Part shown: one piece after another, positions 45,452-61,915 of the stretch
How the letters are laid out: every line of letters starts with the position of its first letter
How positions within the stretch are numbered: position 1 is the stretch's first letter
Origin: Flavivirga algicola
GTDB taxonomy: Bacteria; Bacteroidota; Bacteroidia; Flavobacteriales; Flavobacteriaceae
Direction: 5' to 3'
Assembly: GCF_012910715.1 (NCBI RefSeq)
Contig: NZ_JABBHF010000012.1
Location: 62,001 to 126,000 of the forward strand
Length of the DNA stretch: 64,000 bases
The notes under the pieces: model-generated
What the model was told of the DNA's origin: nothing
Database searches by the model: none
The model's input: the letters and a program-made list of their open reading frames with translations, nothing else
Position numbers and translations under genes: made by a program

Positions 45452-46879
45452 ATGAGTATAACTGCGCAATCGGTATGGGATAATTGTCTTGAATTCATAA
45501 AGGATAACATTCAGCCGCAAGCATATAAAACTTGGTTTGAACCTATTATAGCAGTTAAACTTACAGATAATGCATTAAGTGTCCAAGTGCCTAGTAAATT
45601 CTTTTATGAATGGCTTGAAGAACACTACGTAAAAATCCTAAAAGTATCTCTTACAAAAGAACTAGGAGAAGGCGCCAAGCTTGTTTACATTATAAAAATG
45701 GAAAACACGTATGGCAACAAACAACCTTTTACTGAAAAGATACCAAGTTCGAATAGAACATCTGTAAAATCACAAGATGTTGATATTCCTTTAAACAATA
45801 AAAGTCCAGAATTAAGAAATCCTTTTGTTATTCCAGGCATTAGAAATGTCAAGATAGAATCTCAGTTAAATCCTAATTATAGTTTCGAAAACTTTTTGGA
45901 AGGAGATTCTAATCGCTTGGCCCGTAGTGCTGGTTTAGCTGTTTCAAATAAACCTGGAGGCACATCGTTTAATCCTCTTTTAATTTTTGGAGGTGTAGGC
46001 CTAGGAAAAACACATTTGGCCCATGCTATTGGAGTTGACATAAAAGACAAGTATCCGGAAAAAACTGTTTTGTATATTTCTGCTGAGAAATTTACACAAC
46101 AATATATTGATGCCGTAAAGAAGAATAATAGAAATGATTTTATTCATTTTTATCAAATTATCGATGTATTGATTATTGATGATGTCCAATTCTTTTCTGG
46201 AAAAACTGGAACCCAAGATGTTTTCTTCCATATTTTCAACCATTTGCATCAAAATGGCAAACAGGTTATTTTAACCAGTGATAAAGCACCTGTTGATATG
46301 CAAGATATTGAGCAACGCTTATTATCTCGTTTTAAATGGGGACTTTCTGCCGAACTGCAAACACCAGACTTCGAAACCAGAGTTTCTATACTGAAAAACA
46401 AATTATATCGAGATGGCGTTGAAATGCCTGAAGATATTATAGAATATGTCGCTAAAAATATCAAAACGAATGTTAGGGAATTAGAAGGCGCCATCATTTC
46501 ATTAATAGCACAATCTTCCTTCAACAAAAAAGAAATCACCATTGATTTAGCTAGAATAATCGTTGAGAAATTTGTTAAAAACACGAAACGTGAAGTTTCA
46601 ATAGATTATATACAAAAAGTAGTATCCGATTATTTTCAAATGGATATTGATACTTTACAATCTAAAACGAGAAAACGTCACATCGTTCAGGCACGTCAGC
46701 TTGCCATGTTTTTTGCAAAAAAATTCACCAAAGCATCATTAGCAAGTATTGGTTCTCAAATAGGAAAACGAGATCACGCAACAGTATTACATGCTTGTAA
46801 AACGGTTGACAATTTATCTTCAACAGATAAACAATTTAGAAAATATGTTGAAGATATTACTAAAAAGCTTTCCATTTAA
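45452..46879 (+). CDS. dnaA: Chromosomal replication initiator DnaA
   Basis: DnaA binds boxes in the origin and opens the DNA for helicase loading. The 475-residue protein has the N-terminal DnaB-contact domain (VWDNCLEFIKDNIQPQAYKTWF), a short linker, Walker A GGVGLGKTHLAHA, Walker B VLIIDDVQFFSG, and the C-terminal DNA-binding domain with IGKRDHATVLHACKTV. Everything is intact. Upstream (45259-45451) I find only one DnaA-box-like site and no AT-rich cluster typical of oriC, so the origin is not obviously here. Confidence 0.98.
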   Translation: MSITAQSVWDNCLEFIKDNIQPQAYKTWFEPIIAVKLTDNALSVQVPSKFFYEWLEEHYVKILKVSLTKELGEGAKLVYIIKMENTYGNKQPFTEKIPSSNRTSVKSQDVDIPLNNKSPELRNPFVIPGIRNVKIESQLNPNYSFENFLEGDSNRLARSAGLAVSNKPGGTSFNPLLIFGGVGLGKTHLAHAIGVDIKDKYPEKTVLYISAEKFTQQYIDAVKKNNRNDFIHFYQIIDVLIIDDVQFFSGKTGTQDVFFHIFNHLHQNGKQVILTSDKAPVDMQDIEQRLLSRFKWGLSAELQTPDFETRVSILKNKLYRDGVEMPEDIIEYVAKNIKTNVRELEGAIISLIAQSSFNKKEITIDLARIIVEKFVKNTKREVSIDYIQKVVSDYFQMDIDTLQSKTRKRHIVQARQLAMFFAKKFTKASLASIGSQIGKRDHATVLHACKTVDNLSSTDKQFRKYVEDITKKLSI

Positions 46880-57255: not shown

Positions 57256-57933
57256 ATGCGCATAGATATTATTACTGTTTTACCAGAATTACTTAAAAGT
57301 CCTTTTGAAGCCTCAATTTTAAAACGGGCCATTAATGCTGGTTTGGTAGAAGTGCACTTTCATAACCTAAGAGATTATACTACCAATAATTATAAATCTA
57401 TCGATGACACACAATTTGGTGGTGGAGCTGGTATGGTTATGATGATTGAGCCCATAGATAAGTGCATTTCAGCTTTAAAAGCAGAGAGAGATTATGACGA
57501 AGTGATCTATATGACACCAGATGGAGAAACCTTAAAACAAGGCATTGCCAACCAGATATCATTAAAAGAGAATATTATTATTCTATGTGGCCACTATAAA
57601 GGAGTCGATCAACGAGTACGTGACCATTTTATAACGCGGGAGATTTCTATTGGCGATTATGTATTGTCTGGTGGTGAATTGGGAGCTGCCGTGCTTTGCG
57701 ATGCTGTAATACGATTAATTCCTGGGGTACTGGGTAATGAGACATCTGCTCTAACCGATTCATTTCAAGATAATTTGTTAGCACCTCCTATTTATACAAA
57801 GCCACGCGATTATAAAGGCTGGAAAGTCCCTGAATTATTATTTAGCGGCAACCTTCCCGAGATTGAAAAATGGCGTGAAGAACAGGCTTATTTAAGAACA
57901 AAAGAACGTAGACCAGATTTACTGGACGATTAA
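57256..57933 (+). CDS. trmD: tRNA (guanine-37-N1)-methyltransferase
   Basis: TrmD methylates G37 next to the anticodon and so prevents frameshifts. The 225-residue protein has the SPOUT knot: [48 protein letters not shown] and [15 protein letters not shown]. Length is normal. It is upstream of a small membrane gene and rplS, the conserved order trmD-rplS in many bacteria. Confidence 0.96.
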
Positions 57934-58038: not shown

Positions 58039-58371
58039 ATGGATGAGCTTACCGTTGCAAATGACTTTTTCAACAGTGCAATAATTGGAACTATCTTTTC
58101 AGGGATATCCCATATTCTATTACTAATTGGCAGCATTATTATTTTAAACAAGCAAAAAACTACAGCTAGTTTTTTAATTCTTTTGGGAGCGATTTTTATG
58201 ATATTAACATCTCTTATCGGTATCCTTTGGCCAGTTTTATCGCAAGGGAATTATGAAAAGGTTTTGGAGGTACAAGGCATTATATCTATTATATCGGGAT
58301 TATCTTATTTTATTTTTGCTCTCGGAATCCTTCTTTTTGCTGTACAATTAATAAAAAAAGAGCTCTCGTAA
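58039..58371 (+). CDS. Small four-helix membrane protein
   Basis: This 110-residue protein has three or four membrane helices (about 13-34, 42-66, 80-104) and no soluble domain. It begins MDELTVANDFFNSAIIG. I do not recognise it; unknown function. It lies between trmD and rplS, where most flavobacteria have nothing, so it may be an insertion limited to some strains. Confidence 0.6.
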   Translation: MDELTVANDFFNSAIIGTIFSGISHILLLIGSIIILNKQKTTASFLILLGAIFMILTSLIGILWPVLSQGNYEKVLEVQGIISIISGLSYFIFALGILLFAVQLIKKELS

Positions 58372-58422: not shown

Positions 58423-58491
58423 AATTTCGGGTTAACCTCTGGCGAGAATCGTGAATGTTGTTCTGAATTAATTATAATTAAATTTAAAGAT
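58423..58491 (+). ncRNA. Putative autoregulatory leader of rplS
   Basis: The 69-base leader between the promoter and ATG 58492 can form GCCA (58420-58423)/TGGC with GGTTAACC inside. This size and position suit a ribosomal-protein leader for L19, and an L19 leader class in flavobacteria has been described as far as I recall. I cannot fold or match it here. Confidence 0.4.
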
Positions 58492-58842
58492 ATGGAATCT
58501 TTAGTAAAATTTGTACAAGACGAATTTGTAACAAGAAAAGATTTACCAGAATTTTCAGCTGGTGATACAATCACTGTTTATTACGAGATTAAAGAGGGTA
58601 ACAAAACAAGAACTCAGTTTTTTAGAGGTGTAGTGATACAAAGAAGAGGTTCTGGAACATCAGAAACTTTTACCATTAGAAAAATGTCTGGGTCTATTGG
58701 GGTTGAACGTATTTTCCCAATTAACTTACCAGCTTTACAAAAAATAGAGATTAACAAACGTGGTAAAGTACGTAGAGCCAGAATCTACTATTTTAGAGGT
58801 CTTACTGGTAAAAAAGCCAGAATTAAAGAGAGAAGACACTAA
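58492..58842 (+). CDS. rplS: 50S ribosomal protein L19
   Basis: The 116-residue protein bL19 sits at the 30S-50S interface. It has LVKFVQDEFV, the GDTITVYYEIKEGNKTRTQ segment, FFRGVVIQRRGSGTSETFTIRK and the basic C-terminus RGKVRRARIYYFRGLTGKKARI. Length is standard. It has its own strong promoter, leader and terminator, and is not in an operon with trmD. Confidence 0.97.
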   Translation: MESLVKFVQDEFVTRKDLPEFSAGDTITVYYEIKEGNKTRTQFFRGVVIQRRGSGTSETFTIRKMSGSIGVERIFPINLPALQKIEINKRGKVRRARIYYFRGLTGKKARIKERRH

Positions 58843-58871
58843 TAGCGTATTGTTACAAAACAATTATATAA

Positions 58872-58901
58872 AGGCCTTGATTTTTATCAAGGCTTTTTTT
58901 A
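58872..58901 (+). terminator. Terminator after rplS
   Basis: GCCTTGAT (58874-58881) pairs with ATCAAGGC (58886-58893), followed by TTTTTTT. The AA/TT ends extend the stem. It isolates the downstream transcript. Confidence 0.93.
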
Positions 58902-58958
58902 TTAACAAAAGTTAATAAGTTAAGTTTATAAATAGTTGATATCTAATGCTTTGAAAAA

Positions 58959-58989
58959 TTTGTTTTTTTGATTTCCAATACTATCTTAG
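58959..58989 (+). promoter_or_regulatory. Promoter of the large intergenic RNA
   Basis: TTTG (58959-58962), exactly 19 bases, then TATCTTAG (58982-58989), one mismatch from TAnnTTTG. Transcription would start near 58995. It is the best -33/-7 pair in the window after that of rplS. Confidence 0.7.
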
Positions 58990-58994
58990 CAAAA

Positions 58995-59500
58995 GAATTA
59001 TTAACAACCTCGGTTGGTTTCATGGTAACATGAATTTGTATTATATTCTAAAATAAGGTAACGTTCTTTATTATAATTAATTGTTTTTTGAGGTTTTGGT
59101 GTGCCACGTGTATGCGTGTGAGAGCAAAAGACCATGAGATTACAAAAAGTCCTAAATGTGCAAGCAGTTAGCTACTCGTGTAATTGAAAGCTCTAAAAGC
59201 AACAGAAACGAAAGTGTATGTTGTAATGAAAGCAATGCTTTAATCAAGTTTAACGTGAAAACGAAAAATGCGATTGATAGCATCAAAAAGAACAATTAAT
59301 AGAAACATTTTAAGTAGTAGGTCAATGCATATTGAAAATTACTGATTTGTTTCGTTGAAATAGCAGTACTTGAATTGAAAAGGTTTAAATGCAAGTTTAA
59401 ACTGATTTAGTAGCAATGCTAATTAGGTCACGTCATGTTATTTCAAAGAAAGCCATATCAAAGAAGATTAAGTTCTTTCGTGATATGGCTTTTGTTATTT
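58995..59500 (+). ncRNA. Undescribed structured RNA of about 500 bases
   Basis: The stretch 58843-59704 has no gene over 60 residues. From 58995 it begins with CAAC-CTCG-GTTG (59005-59016) and TTCATG-GTAA-CATGAA (59019-59034), both tetraloop hairpins. Nested helices follow: AGAGC (59121) with GCTCT (59190), CATGAG (59133) with CTCGTG (59175), CAACA (59200) with TGTTG (59219), AAAGC (59229) with GCTTT (59237), and TAGC (59411) with GCTA (59418). AGCAATGCT and CAAGTTTAA each occur twice. It ends in a strong terminator. I see no signs of RNase P RNA (no GAAAGTCCGG), tmRNA (no CCA-ended acceptor) or 6S RNA. The function is unknown; all pairings were read by eye. Confidence 0.6.
59449..59500 (+). 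terminator. Terminator of the large intergenic RNA
   Basis: AAAGCCATATCA (59449-59460) pairs with TGATATGGCTTT (59481-59492), with an inner AAGAA/TTCTT, then GTTATTTT. It stands between two annotated genes and belongs to neither. Confidence 0.88.
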
Positions 59501-59627
59501 TGTAACTTCAATACCTGTTTTTTATTAAATCCTTACTTACATCTAACTTTTTTACCATTCTTATAAAACTATTCCTTTTTAATTGTTTTTCATACAATAT
59601 TTAAACATTTTTAACGAGGCATTTTTG

Positions 59628-59674
59628 TATATTCGCAGGGCTAAAAACGAATCTACATGCATACATGTTTTTAG
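59628..59674 (+). promoter_or_regulatory. icd promoter -7 element and 5' leader hairpin
   Basis: TATATTCG (59628-59635) is one or two bases from TAnnTTTG. Just after the expected start is a hairpin: CTAAAA (59641-59646) with TTTTAG (59669-59674), and ACATG (59655-59659) with CATGT (59664-59668). It could protect the mRNA 5' end or act as an operator. Confidence 0.4.

Positions 59675-61915
<2,241 letters not shown>

Follow-up and report, generated by a model that had tools for sequence, protein, structure and literature searches.

Evidence for a large structured noncoding RNA encoded between rplS and icd in many Flavobacteriaceae

The 862-base gap between rplS and icd (58843-59704) of Flavivirga algicola almost certainly contains an independent, noncoding, structured RNA gene, at about 58995-59502. 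All positions refer to the window, the whole 64,000-nucleotide stretch that was analyzed. A preliminary reading of the letters alone (the sequence-only reading) had proposed an undescribed structured RNA here, and this is borne out by covariation, by conservation, and by the missing Rfam match. The RNA may have a regulatory role, and we consider it rather probable that the full explanation is an independent gene for a trans-acting, protein-bound RNA controlled through an upstream array; the protein-bound trans-acting mode, judged separately, could as easily fail as hold.

Results

The gene order is trmD (57256-57933), a small membrane-like frame (58039-58371), rplS (58492-58842), the gap, and icd (59705-61915), with names read from the proteins; the sequence-only reading gave the same coordinates for the gap. 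It also placed an rplS terminator ahead of the RNA and an icd promoter behind it. The former was found at 58870-58897 on the plus strand, and a promoter-like TATATTYGC box stands between the RNA and icd in the 20 aligned gaps. The rplS terminator forms the upstream border of the RNA unit and was the sole site flagged on the plus strand by a simple terminator scan, which missed the RNA's own terminator (59448-59493), probably because of an interrupted U run. Among the first 20 homologous loci (L001-L020), tblastn found icd in 20, rplS in 19, and trmD in 16. The locus that lacks rplS, L005, has unrelated sequence up to the rplS terminator and then keeps everything from there onwards, with terminator, array, promoter, and RNA intact; this arrangement could be a rearrangement or a misassembly. 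Elsewhere in the neighborhood, the membrane-like frame of the trmD-rplS interval (110 amino acids) shows 37-66% identity in 7 of 11 other loci of the genus and was undetected by tblastn in the other 4, unlike trmD and rplS, which are >93% identical where seen in those 11 loci. The dnaA gene lies at 45452-46879, 12 kb from the RNA.

The main set of homologs used below was selected by a motif inside the RNA, AACGTTCTTTA-N2-18-TTGTTTTTTRAGRTT, which occurs once in each of 60 of 397 genomes of the family, compared to 0 for a backwards control pattern. In a named collection, at least 117 stretches carry the motif, 80 of which are listed with names; among the named matches listed are Gelidibacter, Algibacter, Winogradskyella, Psychroserpens, Formosa, Mariniflexile, Xanthomarina, Lacinutrix, Seonamhaeicola, Flavivirga, and others. 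There were 128 distinct motif loci, of which 18 were too near the end of the locus and were left out, giving a set of 110 within which conservation of the motif itself is not independent evidence. Counted with duplicates, 24 loci were skipped.

Directly upstream of the -33 box lies a conserved array (58899-58942, plus strand) of predicted regulator-binding sites, recognized from the consensus over the 110 loci, TTATtAACaattGTTAATAA..GTTtATAA..GTTgATATCTAA. Its first part is an inverted repeat, TTATTAAC(AAAA)GTTAATAA, at 58899-58918, followed by GTTTATAA at 58924-58931 and GTTGATAT at 58935-58942, and the GTTNATAA-like sites are spaced 13 and 11 nucleotides apart. The combination GTTAATAA-N2-7-GTTNATAA has a single occurrence in the window, compared to 0.02 expected. 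In diverged homologs, the full palindrome TTAACAANTGTTAA is present in only 5 of 20, and GTTNATA-N3-8-GTTNA is found upstream of 11 of 20, compared to 0.28 in shuffles. The array's placement next to the -33 box points to a bound protein as the means of control, and a DNA-binding regulator may set the level of the RNA from the GTTNATAA array. The promoter itself (58959-58989, plus strand) is of the Bacteroidota type and is exactly as the sequence-only reading described it, with TTTG at 58959-58962, 19 nucleotides, and TATCTTAG at 58982-58989. The strict form TTTG-N18-20-TAnnTT[AT]G is present in 87 of 110 sequences, that of the window included, and in 0.5% of shuffled upstream sequences; for a looser form, the figures are 92 of 110 and 4%.

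The RNA is assigned to 58995-59502 on the plus strand, with its start placed from the promoter and its end from the terminator. The minimum free energy of this segment is -130.4 kcal/mol, compared to -99.5 +/- 5.8 for 100 shuffles (z = -5.35), with 0 of 100 as low, and the long-range helices noted earlier from the letters are real. Also present are the two early hairpins of that reading (59005-59034), with a CTCG loop at 59005-59016 and a GTAA loop at 59019-59034. The CTCG hairpin belongs to the RNAalifold consensus, and 4 of its 5 pairs are changed on both sides; the GTAA hairpin is outside the consensus, but high scores are seen for its canonical column pairs 33-50, 35-48, and 37-46. The consensus structure continues with a hairpin, AATAAAG-TAACGTT-CTTTATT, at 59053-59072, in which the (C)GTTCTTT side is conserved; CGTTCTTT occurs upstream of 14 of 20 diverged homologs chosen without that motif, compared to 0.1 of 20 in shuffles. 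A kissing-loop dimerization through the palindromic AACGUU loop is not claimed: AACGUU is part of the motif by which the 110 sequences were selected, and in diverged homologs the first bases of AACGUU vary.

A long-range helix (59079-59091 with 59283-59297) closes a multibranch domain and is paired in 97.5% of cells, its 5' strand being largely fixed by the selection motif. The four branches within the domain (59092-59133, 59139-59184, 59190-59233, and 59236-59282), some of them capped by GNRA-like loops, contain many significant pairs, e.g., alignment columns 168-181, 153-196, 253-296, and 271-278. Alignment and covariation define a 3' module beyond it, with one stem at 59302-59307 and 59348-59353, which encloses inner stems within 59314-59342 and a loop of consensus AUACAUU, and a long stem at 59355-59364 and 59437-59446 with an inner hairpin at 59407-59422. 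The unit ends in a terminator hairpin, AAAGCCATRTCA...TGATATGGCTTTT, at 59448-59493, which had been called a strong terminator from the letters and is nearly invariant: the upper part varies and the lower stem hardly at all, and of 13 pairs, 10 are constant throughout 35 sequences and 8 throughout 40 more diverged ones. An internal duplication proposed by the sequence-only reading stands only in part. A 14-nucleotide repeat (86%) and the short AGCAATGCT do exist, but we do not treat them as a duplication because the two copies occupy different structural settings. The AGCAATGCT copies lie at 59231-59239 and 59412-59420, and several relatives have similar AGCAATG motifs at both places.

The fold is supported by covariation. 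With alignment columns of >70% gaps removed ahead of folding, RNAalifold gave 128 pairs for the 110 sequences (mean pairwise identity, 67.8%). Standard pairs occupy 93.4% of cells, a share that drops to 40.6-44.3% if partners are slid 1-3 columns along. Of the 128 pairs (summed over helices), 74 are changed on both sides in at least two sequences. For 25 of the 110 sequences, the alifold energy was -60.1, compared to -3.7 +/- 2.2 for 60 column shuffles (z = -25). In the 3' module alignment, which comprises 35 of 52 selected sequences, 95.2% of cells are paired (37-41% when slid), 22 of 53 pairs are changed on both sides, and 0 of 500 shuffles scored as high on any measure; in an alignment that adds diverged homologs and was fitted to the structure (A3), the number changed on both sides is 41 of 53. 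The excess over slid versions is partly built in, since alignment and structure derive from the same sequences, and the double-sided changes are the stronger point.

When the structure pairs alone were tested, 22 of 128 were significant at E <0.05 against a home-made tree-based null, which is our own approximation from 30 simulations. The strictest test, over all pairs of columns, left only 3 pairs at E up to 0.2. All 13 of the column pairs that rank first overall are structure pairs; below them, off-structure and non-canonical pairs are mixed in among the high scores, a sign of phylogenetic noise. Covariation in relatives, the check proposed together with the sequence-only reading, is on these figures strong. 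Columns at least 90% conserved make up a fraction of 0.44 of the 256 paired columns and 0.21 of the 273 unpaired ones, with the selection motif contributing to both figures; the greater conservation of paired columns fits a structural rather than a seed-pairing role. The locus thus has what would be expected of an independent RNA gene, namely, promoter and terminator sequences of its own that are conserved and a secondary structure supported by covariation.

The position of the RNA is nearly constant. Of the 110 loci, 109 have rplS on the upstream side and 96 have icd on the downstream side. The 14 in which icd was not seen comprise 6 that end within ~1.1 kb, too short to tell, and 8 with another gene. 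Four of these 8 (L105, L127, L135, and L164) have what we read as a pentapeptide-repeat-like protein followed by an efflux-adaptor-like protein, and the others (L094, L096, L132, and L243) have an opposite-strand frame. Measured from the motif to a point just beyond the terminator, the 10-90% range of lengths is 437-451 (106 of 110 loci with a match to the terminator expression). A DNA search of 60 genomes recovered the RNA in 12 of 12 genomes of the genus, its own included, at 82-100% identity and full or nearly full length, and in seven further genera of the family at 71-74%, whole or in part; an eighth matched at the terminator only. All listed matches with E values <1e-5 are the RNA locus, and short matches at E ~0.001-1 are background, so many in number that a tally of "60 of 60" genomes would be meaningless. 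The 23 genomes of other families among these 60 gave no match <1e-4.

Covariance models extended the search, under strict filters and with only 6 or 8 candidates scored per genome in the whole-genome searches, so that absences are weak evidence. With model R1 (the 3' module), the best 150 places in the 397 family genomes fall one each in 150 genomes at 48 bits or more, and our conclusions rest on these 150 because the palindromic terminator gives reverse matches up to 42 bits (model R2). In all, 231 of 397 genomes match R1 at an E value of 0.01 or better, the weakest of which may be terminator-only or reverse-strand matches. A consecutive run of 20 weak R1 matches in the list (E values of 2e-10 to 4e-7) lies between rplS and icd in 20 of 20 cases, information that the model could not know. 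Among diverged homologs, 89 to 286 nucleotides separate the 5' motif from the 3' module. Model R3, which was built on alignment A3 and includes the diverged homologs, matched in 17 of 296 genomes sampled from the order, every one a member of Flavobacteriaceae. Of 296 sampled from the phylum, it matched in 11, a single match (E value of 9.5e-5) lying outside the family, which we take for chance; an unspecified number of these 592 draws are family members.

Loci of rplS were also taken from 20 genomes, 4 of other families and 16 of the family, of which 15 were picked for lacking an earlier match and one had a weak match. The 4 from other families gave no model match, and on this limited evidence the RNA looks confined to Flavobacteriaceae. 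Four family members (L319, L322, L325, and L327) have a diverged copy at 40-53 bits, L322 being the earlier weak match, and so the model searches miss some true copies. Copies in L320 (33 bits) and L324 (27 bits) are doubtful; the gaps behind rplS in these two loci apparently contain two tandem RNA units, each with its own array and terminator. Seven genomes of the family have short rplS-icd gaps and no match better than an E value of 0.1: four of four genomes of one genus, by inference only Flavobacterium, with a gap of 242-297 nucleotides, L318 and L326 with ~187-194, and L333 with ~407. L328 gave no model match. The RNA is lost in some genera, and its distribution supports a gene that appears, from these sequences, to be inherited at one chromosomal place, 3' of rplS, in many Flavobacteriaceae. 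No convincing second copy of the RNA or repeat of the promoter block was found in its own genome (next best E values of 0.05, and of 0.0015 over 33 nucleotides), and no sign of mobility was seen as an exact motif match in viral contigs or a blastn match in plasmid or phage records.

Discussion

An attenuator or leader acting in cis on icd would account for the presence of icd next to the RNA in 96 of 110 loci and for a terminator upstream of it. Such an element should always lie upstream of the gene it regulates, but in 8 loci a different gene follows, and the promoter-like box between the RNA and icd and the shrinkage of the gap to about 187-407 nucleotides in the 7 family genomes that keep rplS-icd and lack the RNA also speak against this reading, which we find improbable. 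Since the unit is retained at 8 loci that lack icd and at one that lacks rplS beside it, the RNA is no leader of either gene. A messenger for a small protein deserves hardly any credence. The sequence-only reading saw no frame over 60 residues, in agreement with a longest frame of 47 amino acids (59156-59299), the one candidate for such a protein, but this is open in just 1 of 109 other sequences. Ten small frames were tested in these sequences; the best, of 22 amino acids, is open in 37, a net frameshift is present in 57-85, and none is a conserved reading frame. A coding RNA was accordingly rejected, as no frame stays open across relatives. We give equally little weight to a DNA element, i.e., a replication origin with DnaA sites, even with dnaA 12 kb away, a local sign change of the GC skew near 52-54 kb, and an array that resembles imperfect DnaA boxes. 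No TTATCCACA box occurs anywhere in the window, the GC skew in two other genomes (400 kb each) stays mostly below zero to either side of the locus, with its minimum elsewhere, and double-sided compensatory changes favor an RNA; with neither a skew minimum nor DnaA boxes at the locus, the origin appears to lie elsewhere.

The length of the RNA is within the range of RNase P RNA and tmRNA, as a diverged member of a known family might have it, but we think this most improbable. Rfam 15 (4227 models) gave no family matching the RNA at E values up to 5 on 58500-60200, at the gathering threshold on the whole window, or at E values up to 1 on two sets of homologous loci (10 and 18), so that the Rfam check suggested earlier leaves the RNA without a match in the window and in 28 homologous loci. 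Above a gathering score, the only matches in the window and in the homologous loci are to the L19-Flavobacteria leader (RF03130), which in the window is at 58433-58460, just 5' of rplS (44.5 bits); sub-threshold matches fall outside the RNA, for the most part at the rplS terminator. The sequence-only reading saw no hallmark of RNase P RNA, tmRNA, or 6S RNA, and covariance models for these and for small SRP RNA likewise do not match at the locus. These housekeeping RNAs were rejected because each is encoded elsewhere in the genome: RNase P RNA (RF00010) at G000:C5:10795-11145 (194 bits), tmRNA (RF00023) at G000:C33:300893-301287, 6S RNA (6S-Flavo, RF01685) at G000:C1:275942-276071, and small SRP RNA (RF00169) at G000:C10:64354-64452. 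The main rival, to which we assign a minor but real share of likelihood, is a trans-acting regulatory RNA that pairs with mRNAs through an exposed conserved segment, with candidates such as one strand of the 5' hairpin (GTTCTTT) or, in the 3' module, the CACUUGAAUUGAAA stretch. Conserved unpaired stretches exist, and CGTTCTTT is kept in 14 of 20 diverged homologs; against this, unpaired columns are less conserved than paired ones, and pairing sRNAs seldom have such a length or such a nested structure. Within the family, sRNA control does have a precedent in Rfp18 of Flavobacterium psychrophilum (PMC9723704).

The array, the conserved paired columns, and the terminator fit instead a regulated, structure-dependent, protein-binding RNA. 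We propose that the RNA would be transcribed alone, from about 58995 to 59502, would fold into a stable particle, and would act in trans; as a scaffold or sequestering RNA, it would most likely bind one or more proteins rather than work through one exposed pairing seed. A DNA-binding regulator at the GTTNATAA array would set its level, and the RNA may serve a conditional task, one since abandoned by some genera. The variable distance between the 5' motif and the 3' module counts against a rigid scaffold everywhere, and the rarity of TTAACAANTGTTAA in diverged homologs counts against the array-regulator reading. Quite tentatively, and as a possibility we would sooner doubt than assert, the RNA could be the founding member of a Flavobacteriaceae family of chromosomal ribonucleoprotein RNAs with a general role comparable in importance to that of 6S RNA, under an uncharacterized regulator at the GTTNATAA array and lost or replaced in some genera, probably including Flavobacterium.

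To our knowledge, few large RNA families combine conservation across much of a bacterial family with absence from Rfam, and earlier large RNA families pointed to unsuspected biology. Marine Flavobacteriaceae are major degraders of algal polysaccharides, and RNA regulation in them has been little studied. A single copy per genome (by motif) between known genes makes direct deletion and testing feasible in harmless marine strains, and the genera that lost the RNA offer a natural comparison.

Among the papers listed, none appeared to describe the rplS-icd RNA. The Rfp RNAs of Flavobacterium psychrophilum, as presented in the main text of PMC9723704, which mentions neither rplS nor icd, are likewise independent noncoding transcripts of the same bacterial family. 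Their median length is 176 bp (PMC9723704), and they differ further in that the genus inferred to be Flavobacterium has no rplS-icd RNA in 4 of 4 genomes. The L19-Flavobacteria leader RF03130 also adjoins rplS but spans 29 model positions on its 5' side, whereas the rplS-icd RNA is 3', behind the rplS terminator. The 6S-Flavo RNA (RF01685) is similarly a chromosomal structured RNA of the same bacteria, and 6S RNA is believed to act in trans by binding protein, but it is a separate gene here, of about 130 nucleotides. The closest likeness is to OLE, GOLLD, ROOL, HEARO, and raiA, large structured bacterial RNAs of unknown or special function that are several hundred nucleotides long and noncoding, with an elaborate covarying fold and a restricted distribution. 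Those families are presumably all contained in Rfam; the rplS-icd RNA, in contrast, has no Rfam match, is found almost only in one bacterial family, sits beside rplS in 109 of 110 loci, and is absent from the plasmid and phage records searched. We regard it as a new RNA family of a known general kind, the lineage-specific large structured RNA.
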